Position numbers and translations under genes: made by a program. Below are positions 4,082-39,801 of a stretch of DNA of 64,000 nucleotides, piece after piece. The notes beneath the pieces are model-generated. The model had not been told where the DNA came from. It worked only from the letters and a program-made list of their open reading frames with translations, and made no database searches. This DNA comes from Halococcus sediminicola. Its GTDB lineage: Archaea > Halobacteriota > Halobacteria > Halobacteriales > Halococcaceae. The stretch is taken from NCBI RefSeq assembly GCF_000755245.1, contig NZ_BBMP01000022.1:372001-436000 (forward strand), in the 5' to 3' direction. Each line of letters opens with the position of its first letter. Position 1 is the stretch's first letter.

Positions 4082-4378
4082 GCCTGGCGGATGAAGGGCG
4101 AGGGGCGTGGCACGAGCAGTGGGCGGCGCTCGCTACGCTTGCGCCGCCAAGCGAACGGGGAGCGGAGCGACCCGTGAGCGGAGTGAGTGCCGCGACCGAA
4201 GGGAGTGCGCCGAGGGCTTCAGCGGTGCTGTGCGGTCGGCGGTTGCGGAGGCAGTGCGGGAGCGTCAGCATCCGCGCGAGTGGAGCGAGCGCGGAGCGCG
4301 AGTGAGCGGGACGTTTTTAGCGTAGCTTTTTGCGAGGAGTGGTTCGCGCGAAGCGCGAACCCGAAGAAGTAAAAAGGT
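4082..4378 (+). repeat. Dispersed intergenic element, copy A (long form)
   Basis: This gene-free stretch shares with 39198-39410 a GGATGAAGGGCGAG segment, then GAGGGCTTC, GTGCTGTGCGG, AGCATCCG and AGTGAGCGGG segments in the same order. The core at 4313-4332 reads GTTTTTAGCGTAGCTTTTTG. A perfect 9-bp stem follows (4341-4349 with 4353-4361, loop GAA), then an A-tract at 4370-4375. It lies just downstream of tRNA-Arg (minus strand), so the closing A-tract becomes a T-tract after the tRNA. Function is unproven; terminator or REP-like element are the leading options. Confidence 0.6.
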
Positions 4379-4382
4379 ACCA

Positions 4383-4457
4383 CGGGCACGGTGGGATTCG
4401 AACCCACGGCCGTCGGATTAGAAGTCCGACGCTCTATCCGGGCTGAGCTACGTGCCC
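4383..4457 (-). tRNA. tRNA-Arg (TCT)
   Basis: On the minus strand the sequence gives a complete cloverleaf: acceptor GGGCACG/CGTGCCC, D-stem GCTC/GAGC, anticodon stem TCGGA/TCCGA around loop CTTCTAA with anticodon TCT, and T-arm GTGGG-TTCGAAT-CCCAC. The discriminator base is G. It is intronless, with CCA not encoded. It is transcribed away from the UPF0200 gene, which starts 85 bases to the right. Confidence 0.96.
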
Positions 4458-10217: not shown

Positions 10218-10260
10218 TTGCCGACGCTATGCCGTGTAGCTGGTAAAGGCTTGTCCGTCC

Positions 10261-10347
10261 CACTTTTTTTGCGTCGGGTCGGTTCGCTCCGCTTACCGAT
10301 CACTCCTTGAAAAACCTGGACTAAAAAGGTCCGCTCGCTCGCCGACG
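10261..10347 (-). repeat. Dispersed intergenic element, copy C (short form)
   Basis: Read on the minus strand, the core is CTTTTTAGTCCAGGTTTTT, preceded by GTCGGCGAGCGAGCGG. It is followed by an imperfect inverted repeat (CGGT ... ACCG) and a run of seven A's before GTGGG. The core matches copy B (39332-39352) over TTTTTAGTCCAGGTTTTT. It lies downstream of ftsY and upstream of ffh. The rest of the 283-base gap (10348-10500) carries only GAGTGAAACGA-like segments related to the upstream arm of copy B; I see no gene there. Confidence 0.6.
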
Positions 10348-36027: not shown

Positions 36028-37125
36028 ATGGGCATGGACCCTCGCGTCCGCGAGCACGCGGCAGTCATCGTCGAGCACTGCTGTGACGTCTCCGCGGAGG
36101 ACAACGTCGTCATCGGGGCACCGTCGACCGCGGAAAACCTCGTCGTTGCACTCTACGAGAGGCTAGGTGAGCGCGGTGCCCGACCGGCGCTTCACTGGTC
36201 GAGCGCGCGGGCCGGTCGCGCCTACGCCCGTGCGATGAATCCCGACGACTACCGCACTGCCGAACATCGACTCGCGGAAATGGAAGAGACGGACGTCGTC
36301 ATCATGATCGGCGGGTCGCACAACACCGCCGAACAGAGCGACGTGAGCGCCGAAATGGGACCGGCGAGGAGTCGTGCCCACGAACCAATCCTCCAAGAGC
36401 GCCTCGAAAAGCAGTGGGTCCTCACCCAGCATCCCACGACCGGCAACGCCCAGAAAGCCGGGATGAGCACCGAAGCCTACGAGGACTTCGTCTACCGGGC
36501 CGTGAACAAGGACTGGGACGAACAGCGCGAGTTCCAAGCGCAACTGGTCGAGGTTCTCGACCCCGCGAACGAGGTACACATCGTCTCGGGCGATTCGACC
36601 GACCTCACGATATCGGTCGAGGGGATGCACGCCGTGAACGACAACGGTAAACTCAACTTGCCGGGCGGGGAGGTGTTCACCGCGCCGGTGCCCGATTCGG
36701 TGGAAGGTGAGGTTCACTTCGACAAGCCACTCGTCCGTTACGGACGGGAGATCCAGGACGTGCGACTCACTTTCGAGAAGGGCAAGGTGATCACCCACGA
36801 GGCCGCGAAGAACGAGGACCTGTTGACGTCGGTACTCGATACCGACGACGGCGCACGCCGACTCGGCGAGTTGGGCATCGGGATGAACCGCGACATCGAC
36901 CGCTTCAGCTACAACATGCTGTTCGACGAGAAGATGGGCGATACGATTCATCTGGCGCTCGGCGACGCCATCGACGAGTGTGTCCCGGAGGAAATGGAGG
37001 CGAACGAGAGCGCCCAGCACGTCGACATGATCGTCGATATGAGCGAGAATTCGAAAATCGAAGTCGACGGCGAGGTCGTCCAGCGCGACGGAACGTTCAG
37101 GTTCGAAGACGGTTTCGAGGGGTAG
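36028..37125 (+). CDS. M29 family metallo-aminopeptidase, copy 1
   Basis: The 365-residue protein matches the M29 (thermophilic aminopeptidase, AmpS/PepS) family. Metal-site blocks are visible: LPGGEVFTAPV (Glu), RLGELGIGMN (Glu), FSYNMLFDEKMGDTIHLALG (Tyr, His) and SAQHVDMIVDM (His, Asp). It removes N-terminal residues from peptides, with two metal ions. It is one of a tandem pair with closely similar sequence; the second copy starts 94 bases later. The tail ends GTFRFEDGFEG. A MD start six bases downstream (36034) is equally possible. Confidence 0.92.
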   Translation: MGMDPRVREHAAVIVEHCCDVSAEDNVVIGAPSTAENLVVALYERLGERGARPALHWSSARAGRAYARAMNPDDYRTAEHRLAEMEETDVVIMIGGSHNTAEQSDVSAEMGPARSRAHEPILQERLEKQWVLTQHPTTGNAQKAGMSTEAYEDFVYRAVNKDWDEQREFQAQLVEVLDPANEVHIVSGDSTDLTISVEGMHAVNDNGKLNLPGGEVFTAPVPDSVEGEVHFDKPLVRYGREIQDVRLTFEKGKVITHEAAKNEDLLTSVLDTDDGARRLGELGIGMNRDIDRFSYNMLFDEKMGDTIHLALGDAIDECVPEEMEANESAQHVDMIVDMSENSKIEVDGEVVQRDGTFRFEDGFEG

Positions 37126-37218
37126 CGAACGTTTTTGATGCAGCTCCTTCCGAATTCCGACCGACAGTAGACGTTCGGGTTTCGAAACTGGTTTGCACAG
37201 TCCGAGAATCGATGGGAC

Positions 37219-38319
37219 ATGGACCCACGAGTGCGCGAGCACGCACAGTTGATCGCCGACGCCGTCGACCTCGGGGCTGGCGACGACTTTCTCATCAAAT
37301 CCGAGCCACCGGCCGACGACCTCGTGACCGCTCTCTACGAGGTCGCCGGCGAGCGCGGTGCGCATCCGCTCGCCATCCGAACGAACCGAAGCGGGCGGGC
37401 GATTCGAGCCTATCTCAACGCCGCCGACGAGAGCGAAGTGGAGTTCGAGACGCCCGCCCACCAGCGCGCGCTCGTCGAGGCCGCCGACTGCCACGCCATC
37501 ATCCGCGCCCACGAGAACGTCACCGAACTCGGCGACGTCGACCCGGACGTGAACTCGGCCTACGAGAAGGCTCACGGACCCATCCTCGAAGAGCGCCTCG
37601 GCGACCGCTGGACGCTGACCCAATATCCCACCCCTGCAAACGCCCAGCTCGCCGAGATGAGCACCGAAGCCTACGAGAACTTCGTCTACGACGCCATCCT
37701 GAAGGACTGGGACGAACAGGCCGAGTTCCAAGCCCAGTTAGTCGAGATCCTCGACCCGGCCGAGGAGGTCCGCATCGTCTCGGGCGAGAGTACCGATATT
37801 ACGATGTCCATCGCGGGCAACCACACCATCAACGACACCGATAGCCACAACCTGCCCGGCGGCGAGGTGTTCACGGCACCTGTCCCCGAAAGCGTGGAGG
37901 GCGAGGTCCACTTCGACAAACCCGTCTATCGCCGCGGGCGCGAGATCACCGACGTGCGACTCACCTTCGAGGACGGCGAGGTCGTGTCCCACGAAGCCGA
38001 GAAGAACGAGGACCTCCTGACGACGATCCTCGACACCGATGCTGGTGCGCGCCGTCTCGGCGAGTTGGGCATCGGGATGAACCGCGACATCGACCACTTC
38101 AGCTACAACATGCTGTTCGACGAGAAGATGGGCGACACAGTGCACATGGCCGTCGGCAGAGCCTACGACGACAATATCGGTGATGGCAACGAGCAGAACC
38201 AGAGCGCCCAGCACGTCGATATGATCGTCGATATGGGCGACGACTCGCGTATCGAGGTCGATGGCGAAGTCGTCCAACGCGACGGCACCTTCCGATTCGA
38301 GGACGGTTTCGAGGCGTAG
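37219..38319 (+). CDS. M29 family metallo-aminopeptidase, copy 2
   Basis: The 366-residue paralogue of the preceding gene has the same metal motifs (LPGGEVFTAPV, LGELGIGMN, FSYNMLFDEKMGDTVHMAVG, SAQHVDMIVDM). It diverges most in the N-terminal 110 residues, which may change peptide specificity. The tail is GTFRFEDGFEA, and the same 11 codons occur again downstream at 38388-38423. It starts with ATG at 37219, with no obvious separate promoter, so co-transcription with copy 1 is likely. Confidence 0.92.
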   Translation: MDPRVREHAQLIADAVDLGAGDDFLIKSEPPADDLVTALYEVAGERGAHPLAIRTNRSGRAIRAYLNAADESEVEFETPAHQRALVEAADCHAIIRAHENVTELGDVDPDVNSAYEKAHGPILEERLGDRWTLTQYPTPANAQLAEMSTEAYENFVYDAILKDWDEQAEFQAQLVEILDPAEEVRIVSGESTDITMSIAGNHTINDTDSHNLPGGEVFTAPVPESVEGEVHFDKPVYRRGREITDVRLTFEDGEVVSHEAEKNEDLLTTILDTDAGARRLGELGIGMNRDIDHFSYNMLFDEKMGDTVHMAVGRAYDDNIGDGNEQNQSAQHVDMIVDMGDDSRIEVDGEVVQRDGTFRFEDGFEA

Positions 38320-38321
38320 CG

Positions 38322-38381
38322 GTCGTTTTTAGCGCAGATTTTTGTGAGTGCCGAGCGAAGCGAGGGACGAAGCAAAAAGGT
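38322..38381 (+). repeat. Dispersed intergenic element, copy D (short form)
   Basis: The core GTTTTTAGCGCAGATTTTTG (38325-38344) follows the aminopeptidase stop directly. It is followed by GAGTGCCGAGCGAAGCGAGG, a small inverted repeat, and by CAAAAAGG, which mirrors the TTTTTG of the core. The match to copy A is TTTTTAGCG-tag/cag-TTTTTG. It separates the real gene end from a second, orphan copy of the aminopeptidase C-terminus. Confidence 0.6.
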
Positions 38382-38423
38382 GCGACTGGGACCTTCCGGT
38401 TCGAGGACGGCTTCGAGGCGTAA
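38382..38423 (+). pseudogene. Remnant C-terminus of a third M29 aminopeptidase
   Basis: After element copy D, the bases at 38388-38423 encode GTFRFEDGFEA and a stop, the same tail as copy 2 (38281-38319), with third-position changes and TAA instead of TAG. Homology extends a few bases upstream (TGCGAC) with a one-base shift. Nothing else of a gene is present. It looks like the scar of a deleted third tandem paralogue, or a duplication made when the element arrived. Confidence 0.6.
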
Positions 38424-38430
38424 TCAGTAA

Positions 38431-39126
38431 TCAGAACTCTTCCGTGTGTGGTCGGAGGTCGAGTTCGAGCGTCCACGCACTCGGGTCCTGTCCGACTAAG
38501 TGCCAGTAGCTTGCGGCGATGGCGTCGGGGTCGAGATACTCCTCTGGATTGTGGACCTCGCTGTCGGGCGGGCGGATGCCGCCGTCGATGACGACGTGGG
38601 CGACGTGAATACCTCGAGGACCGAGGTCGCGGGCCATCGACTCGGCCATGCCACGGACGGCGAACTTCGCCGTCGAAAAGGCGAGCGCGCCCTTGTTTCC
38701 TCGTACTGAGGAGGTCGCCCCCGTGAAGATCACCGTGCCGCTGCCCTCTTCGAGCATGTCCGCGACGGCCTCCTGTGAGCAGTGAAACCCGCCCTGAGTG
38801 CCGACCGCGAGCGCGTGCTCGAACTCCTCACCAGAGAGATCCATCAGTCGCTTCCACGCGCCGCCGCTCGCGTGATTGACGAGCACGTCGACGGGACCGA
38901 ACGCTTCGCGGACTTCATCGAAGCCCGCTTTGACCGCTTCGGCGTCGGTGATATCGGTCTGGACCGCAAGCGCGTCACCGTCCTCGTTCAGTTCGTCGGC
39001 GAGGTCTTCGATGAACTCCGCCGAGCGCGCGAACAGGCCGACCGCACAACCCTCGGCGACGAACTTTCGCGCTATCGACGCGCCCAGACCGGGACCGACG
39101 CCCGCGATGACGGCCGTTCGTGTCAT
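38431..39126 (-). CDS. Short-chain dehydrogenase/reductase lacking the catalytic Tyr
   Basis: The 231-residue SDR has a dinucleotide motif GVGPGLGASIARKF (residues 9-22) and the structural VNHASGGAW. The active-site region reads GATSSVRGNKGALAFSTAKFAVRG, so the usual Tyr of YxxxK is Phe150, with Lys154 kept. The Ser at about 139-140 is present. A subgroup of SDRs has this natural change, and altered or lost dehydrogenase activity is possible. It ends just short of the aminopeptidase scar and converges with it. Confidence 0.88.
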   Translation of the reverse strand: MTRTAVIAGVGPGLGASIARKFVAEGCAVGLFARSAEFIEDLADELNEDGDALAVQTDITDAEAVKAGFDEVREAFGPVDVLVNHASGGAWKRLMDLSGEEFEHALAVGTQGGFHCSQEAVADMLEEGSGTVIFTGATSSVRGNKGALAFSTAKFAVRGMAESMARDLGPRGIHVAHVVIDGGIRPPDSEVHNPEEYLDPDAIAASYWHLVGQDPSAWTLELDLRPHTEEF

Positions 39127-39197
39127 ACTCTCCTCTCGCCATCCAGCGCCAAAACCGTTCGGTGGCCGGCGGCGTTGCGGCCGCGGTGCGGTCGCGG

Positions 39198-39410
39198 TCC
39201 TTGGTGGATGAAGGGCGAGCGACTGAAAGGAGCGAGGGCTTCGGCGGAGGCGGTGCTGTGCGGAAAGTGTAGCATCCGTGCGAGTGAAACGAGCACGATT
39301 CGCCGCGAACGAGCCGTCGGCGAGTGAGCGGGTGTTTTTAGTCCAGGTTTTTGGTCGGGGTTCGAGTGAGCGCCGAAGGCGCGAGCGAGGACCCCGTCTG
39401 AAAAAGTGGG
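39198..39410 (+). repeat. Dispersed intergenic element, copy B (long form)
   Basis: This gene-free gap shares a series of ordered segments with 4082-4378: GGTGGATGAAGGGCGAG, GAGGGCTTCGGCGG, GTGCTGTGCGG, AGCATCCG, CGAGTGA and GAGTGAGCGGG. The core GTTTTTAGTCCAGGTTTTTG (39334-39353) follows, then a GGGGT ... GCGCC-GAA-GGCGC ... ACCCC inverted repeat and GAAAAAGTGGG. It lies downstream of the ferredoxin gene (minus strand) and upstream of the SDR gene. I see no gene in it. Confidence 0.6.
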
Positions 39411-39411
39411 T

Positions 39412-39801
39412 TTAGATAACGCGGTTCTGGAGGTAGTCGAGGTGTTTGGCGTTGTAGACGATCTTCACGGTGTCGGCGGCGGGGCTGCCGATGCAGGTCA
39501 GACGCACGTTGCGGTCCTCGACTTCCTCGTCGGAGAGGATCTGCTGCATGTCCATGTCGATCTCGCCCTCCTTGACGATGGCCGCGCAGTTGGCGCACGC
39601 GCCAGCGCGGCACGAGAAGGGCCAGTCGTAGCCCTGTGCTTCGGCGGCTTCGAGAATGTATTCCGATTCGTTGACGTCGAGCGAGCCGTAGTCCTCCTCG
39701 CCGAGACCGGCGTCTTCGGCCTTCTCGAAGAGGTCGTCGTCGTCGATCTCCCATCCCTGGTCGTCGAACACTTCGTAGTTGACGTATTCTACTGTGGGCA
39801 T
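39412..39801 (-). CDS. fdx: Halophilic [2Fe-2S] ferredoxin
   Basis: The 129-residue ferredoxin has the plant-type cluster ligands Cys64, Cys69, Cys72 (CRAGACANC) and Cys103. The acidic N-terminal insertion (residues 14-45) is the hallmark of haloarchaeal ferredoxins. It accepts electrons from 2-oxoacid:ferredoxin oxidoreductases. Its length matches well-known haloarchaeal ferredoxins. The ATG at 39801 is chosen because the longer upstream frame runs into the phosphate transporter gene. Confidence 0.95.

Follow-up and report, generated by a model that had tools for sequence, protein, structure and literature searches.

We report that the 3′ end of an aminopeptidase gene is present twice in the window (the whole 64,000-nucleotide stretch of DNA that was analysed; source genus Halococcus, genome G000), once on each side of a short hairpin, and that equivalent layouts recur behind unrelated genes of haloarchaea. 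To account for this arrangement, we propose with moderate confidence a cassette, X–E–X′, in which a gene end with its stop codon (X) is followed by a hairpin of the gene 3′ end (E) and by a direct copy of the gene end starting from the 3′ foot of E (X′), and which would be moved by recombination and kept by conversion.

Architecture of the locus and its native gene end

The features of the locus are as follows.

36028–37125, + strand: aminopeptidase 1 (Peptidase_M29); ORF, Pfam PF02073, E = 2.4e-61; orthologue of gene A of genome G001, which carries a tail–E–tail unit
37126–37143, + strand: probable start of a decayed hairpin element 3′ of aminopeptidase 1, CGAACGTTTTTGATGCAG; recognized by eye against CGGTCGTTTTTAGCGCAG at 38320–38337 and the sequence downstream of G001 gene A
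37219–38319, + strand: aminopeptidase 2 (Peptidase_M29); ORF, Pfam PF02073, E = 1.6e-62
38284–38319, + strand: attached tail X, the newcomer end (last 11 codons plus TAG); pattern match and copy alignment; the G004 end reads GGCTTCGAGGCGTAATCAG instead
After 38319 and before 38326: six-base spacer between X and E
38326–38387, + strand: hairpin element E; covariance model match at 38326–38386, E = 2.4e-09 (its own copy being in the training set); covarying stem
Pairing within E: outer stem 38333–38336 with 38381–38384; TTTTT 38339–38343 with AAAAA 38374–38378
38388–38423, + strand: orphan tail X′, the native end of aminopeptidase 2, closing with TAA; its junction (TAATCAG, then the SDR gene) recurs in the E-less G004 and H. 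thailandensis
38431–39126, − strand: convergent short-chain dehydrogenase (SDR) gene, marker of the native downstream flank; ORF, Pfam PF00106, E = 6.6e-39

An initial annotation of this DNA had noticed the tail of aminopeptidase 2 on both sides of an element, and both tails are indeed present: the tail pattern has two exact matches in the window (38287–38319 and 38391–38423) and none in 100 dinucleotide shuffles. Both X and X′ encode GTFRFEDGFEA followed by a stop, TAG in X and TAA in X′, with 91% identity between them across 35 nt; a third copy, at 83%, is the tail of aminopeptidase 1. The insert between X and X′ is a gene-free hairpin of about 62 bp, and its assignment to a repeated element is borne out by a covariance model, which places four copies of the hairpin family in the window (4314–4383 +, 10257–10327 −, 38326–38386 + and 39335–39412 +). 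Because an identical layout is found in many independently sequenced genomes, an assembly artefact at 38320–38423 is very unlikely.

Two further window copies also lie at gene ends. The copy at 4314–4383 ends exactly where a tRNA-Arg gene on the opposite strand (4383–4457) has its 3′ end, so that the foot of E adjoins not only stop codons but also RNA genes. The copy at 39335–39412 ends at the stop codon of a convergent ferredoxin-like ORF (named from its sequence) and is without a tail copy.

Comparison with relatives indicates which of the two tails belongs to the site. Both G004 and G009 (H. thailandensis, of the same genus as the window) carry a single M29 gene at this locus (proteins 94–95% identical), the 3′ end of which runs directly into the same convergent SDR gene. 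These genes end in ...TTCGAGG[C/G]GTAATCAGAAC, leading into the SDR gene (...GG[C/G]GTAA TCAGAAC), a junction equal to that of the orphan tail; X is without the native junction and ends in TAG CGGTCG TTTTT. Because X′ shares the junction to the SDR gene with G004 and G009 and X does not, X′ is the native gene end and the segment X + TAG + E the newcomer. In the third close relative, H. morrhuae (G003), a single M29 gene is present and E is absent, and the downstream sequence is different, so that it offers no clean empty site. The Halococcus genome G001 has three tandem M29 genes (G001:C9:21941–25758), with a tail copy behind the first, gene A.

Structure and recurrence of the hairpin element

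An exact-motif search found about 40 copies of E genome-wide in G000. The support for a stem comes from an alignment of 33 E sequences, in which the outer stem of four to five pairs changes on both sides (CGCA/TGCG, CGTA/TACG, CGAC/GTCG and CGAA/TTCG) and is accompanied by a conserved mismatch and a TTTTT/AAAAA stem. Pairing was found in 86.4% of cells; shuffles gave 76.7%, none of the 500 reaching the observed value, and slid pairings did not exceed 70.0%. The covariance model gave between 1 and 68 matches in each of eight genomes, the majority of them also sources of the training set; some of the matches, in these genomes and in the window, were themselves training sequences. A strict pattern (CATCGANGTTTTT...AAAAAGNTCG) had suggested that E is unique to M29 genes; this was overturned by the covariance model.

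E is a 3′-end element of genes, because a stop codon on the opposite strand lies 3–23 nt past its A-run in 52 of 91 distinct copies (49 of them at 3–11 nt), compared with 9.9% at random positions. Rfam 15 gave no gathering match for eight loci with E, and its one match in the window region 38000–39600 was at chance level and away from E. Plasmid and phage collections gave no match to E, a weak negative given one short query each. Most Halococcus copies of E (L047–L076) have a longer shared repeat upstream (for example, GCGGTTCACCGCGAGCGA..GAGCGGGAG), so that E could form half of a composite unit.

The layout seen in the window recurs widely. A pattern built from the window junction, and hence biased toward that junction, matched 21 times in 18 of 392 genomes of the order, and 19 of these matches, in 16 genomes, lay behind M29 tails as judged by eye; the M29-tail layout was found in at least six haloarchaeal families. 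In a count free of that bias, a tail copy (at least 24 of 30 positions) was present at 11 of 79 named M29 loci and at 3 of 1353 other ORF ends of the same loci. Among 91 copies of E from nine genomes, an upstream repeat (at least 19 of 20) started at the 3′ foot in 19, as compared with 1 of 451 swapped control pairs; the 19 include L212 (intergenic) and L248 (tRNA-like), which are probably not gene ends, and L188 and L202, which are second copies within arrays. E alone is insufficient for a tail copy, as the other 72 copies are without one.

Beyond M29, the genes with tail copies include those for citrate synthase, isoleucyl-tRNA synthetase (IleRS; two genomes, different groups), thiolase, an FAD oxidase, a phosphorylase and a ferredoxin. 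Where genes are involved, E has the complete gene on its 5′ side and the orphan tail on its 3′ side. The 3′ junction of E is fixed: the copy always begins just behind the 3′ foot, while the point in the gene at which it starts differs by group and the copied length ranges from about 30 to 140 nt. At L204, the left copy ends 1 nt before E and the right copy begins at its foot, with 135 of 138 positions identical. L204 and L217, from genomes of different groups, are both IleRS ends (DUF5915) with E and a tail copy, and their junctions differ. In L193 (G395), L146 and L082, the whole tail–E unit occurs in tandem arrays, which is what unequal crossing-over between X and X′ predicts.

Tail copies keep the stop codon in 23 of 25 loci. 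The frame offset from the gene stop to the tail copy is spread over the three frames (10, 5 and 10 of the 25 loci); because the frame is not kept, a translated role of X′ by read-through or frameshift was rejected as unlikely. The regular expression found no E in L234, L246, L249 and L253, and none in L190, L210 and L211.

Maintenance, origin and mechanism of the cassette

The tail copy tracks its own gene. In 13 Halorubrum-like loci, X′ differed from its own X by 0.92 mismatches per 27 nt and from the X of other species by 2.37 (0 of 20000 permutations as low), although repeated fresh duplication would equally make X′ follow X; this measurement left out L284 and L293, where tail copies are present and E escaped the regular expression. 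For citrate synthase in Haloarcula and a close relative (n = 9), species-specific changes were repeated in the copy in three species, a remnant was seen in one and none in five.

The presence of the unit is patchy between close species. In Halorubrum (the genus, as we take it, of G218), the E motif is present in 18 of 50 loci, and a tail copy accompanies it in 15 of the 18; in the other three (L294, L300 and L290) E is broken or doubtful and the copy is absent. None of the E-less loci among the 50 has a tail copy. This set excludes G411, L305 was not located and L304 repeats L270. On the weakly supported Halorubrum gene tree, the E label changes 15 times, compared with 14.9 in shuffles; the placing of gains and losses of E on this single-gene tree was dropped, because the support of the tree is too weak. 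Since the tail copy tracks its own gene and its presence is patchy between close species, the unit appears to be homogenised and to come and go easily. Both the tracking and the patchiness would be explained by gene conversion between X and X′ combined with loss through recombination of the two.

Short extra pieces of M29 tail directly after the stop codon were observed at the M29 ends L264, L261, L301 and L256 (genus of G218), without E in the first three; they are possible scars of lost cassettes. A collapsed E in Haloarcula sebkhae (L135) has the look of a short-homology deletion.

Aminopeptidase 1 is the most likely source of the unit in the window. We favour a transfer from one tandem paralogue to the other because aminopeptidase 1 groups with the tail–E–tail carrier G001 gene A (SH-aLRT 96), because a probable decayed E (only about 18 nt, recognized by eye) follows aminopeptidase 1, and because the window E is 87% identical to the E of G001 gene A, 81% to that of a Halorubrum M29 gene and at most 70% to 26 other copies of its own genome. 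Gene C of G001, the orthologue of aminopeptidase 2, is without tail–E–tail. An X copied straight from gene 1 should resemble the gene 1 tail, yet X has GGCACCTTCC and GAGGCG in common with G004, the E-less relative of gene 2, and only some X positions are gene-1-like (GGTTTCGAG, TAGCG); other donors by gene transfer are possible. We do not favour a recent jump by a member of the genome's E family, as the window E is nearer to E copies at M29 genes in other genera than to the 26 own-genome copies; across genera, the E copies at M29 make up a lineage specific to that locus. The third-position differences between X and X′ described in the initial annotation are present; they are compatible with separate drift of the two gene ends or with X having originated in aminopeptidase 1.

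We suggest the following events for the cassette. A first tail copy could arise if, at the 3′ foot of E, a DNA end or a strand being copied were joined back to some point in the end of the upstream gene, the trigger being perhaps hairpin-provoked breakage or template switching. In this genome, recombination between the similar tails of the two aminopeptidase genes would have carried the segment X–stop–E from aminopeptidase 1 into aminopeptidase 2; gene conversion would keep X and X′ alike, and recombination between X and X′ could remove E and restore the empty site.

An extension of this scheme, which we put forward tentatively and hold to be rather doubtful, is that E is a minimal mobile element that uses the gene end of its neighbour as a homology arm and, flanked by the two copies, enters and leaves alleles or paralogues by host homologous recombination without a recombinase of its own. 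Each lineage of E would be tied to one gene across species (M29, citrate synthase or IleRS), because the homology arm would serve as the address.

Unlikely, in our estimate, is the explanation that E is a transposable element inserting near gene ends with a long, variable target-site duplication, where the gene would survive because the duplicate includes the stop codon. The X–E–X′ geometry, the nearly identical L204 copies flush with E and the empty sites in relatives are all as such an element would leave them; the span of copied lengths, the majority of E copies without a duplication, the locus-specific M29 lineage and the tandem tail–E arrays speak against it. A target duplication made on insertion had also been considered in the initial annotation, and the link between duplication and element holds in spirit; the varying copied length, the majority of E copies without a duplication and the nearness of the window E to M29-linked copies of other genera argue against a recent jump of a transposon from the same genome.

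Less probable again is that E and the tail copy form a putative functional 3′-end module, a terminator or RNA-stabilising hairpin, with the copy kept by selection. The proximity of the A-run to opposite-strand stops, the window copy that ends at the tRNA-Arg gene, the covarying stem and the retained stop codons agree with such a role, but the unit is patchy among close species and the frame spread makes a translated role of X′ unlikely.

Finally, it is highly improbable that, as first annotated, a deletion ending in the element reduced a third tandem aminopeptidase gene to the orphan tail: M29 genes are tandem here and stand three in a row in G001, but there the copy lies behind gene A and is followed by the complete genes B and C, the single M29 gene of G004 and G009 abuts the SDR gene with the junction of the orphan, H. 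morrhuae likewise has one M29 gene, and equal tail copies stand behind citrate synthase, IleRS, thiolase and other non-tandem genes.

Relation to known repeats and integrative elements

A literature search found no description of a hairpin with a renewed host-gene end, and the tail–E–tail layout is unmentioned in the available portions of PMC12306157 and PMC13321033; the gene-end/E/gene-end arrangement in haloarchaea is apparently undescribed. Short intergenic hairpins are common, and what appears to be new is the pattern of a hairpin with a fixed foot and a renewed host-gene end at unrelated genes and in different species. The X–E–X′ layout suggests how a non-coding repeat could spread and disappear with no transposase involved, a route open to testing, and it could serve as a natural reporter of gene conversion in polyploid archaea. 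For annotation it carries a warning that an orphan gene end is not necessarily the sign of a lost gene.

REP and REPIN sequences of bacteria are intergenic hairpins in many copies, often at the 3′ ends of genes; we know of none with duplicated gene ends. E has the REP-like trait of a short palindromic hairpin with many intergenic copies, as its covarying stem and its abundance in G000 indicate. At tRNA genes, integrative elements duplicate their att site and so rebuild the 3′ end of the gene. The window unit resembles them in that the newcomer would supply a fresh gene end and displace the old one downstream; it differs in its size of about 100 bp, the lack of a recombinase gene and a copied end that changes from gene to gene.

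Closest at hand are the MITEs, PATEs and SMRs of Haloquadratum, to judge from the available part of PMC3119063. Like these transposase-free mobile repeats, E is a short, non-coding, palindromic and multi-copy repeat of haloarchaea; what sets it apart from them, as they are described there, are the long and variable copies of the adjacent gene's end that flank it on one side, and its ties to particular genes. Haloquadratum MITEs have terminal repeats in common with a transposon (same source, same portion), and E departs from a MITE in that it has no short constant target duplication, its duplicates measuring about 30 to 140 nt and being absent at most copies. According to the same portion of PMC3119063, target duplication is absent from SMRs and PATEs; set beside the SMRs (HqIRS) by description, E has both states, 72 of 91 copies being without a duplication and 19 with one. 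That text also describes, in the part available, repeat-mediated deletion in haloarchaea, in which the segment between direct repeats, usually shorter than 20 bp, is lost together with one repeat. The step from X–E–X′ to an empty site is alike in form, with the difference from the deletions described there that the repeats are gene ends of about 30–140 nt and are seemingly renewed.
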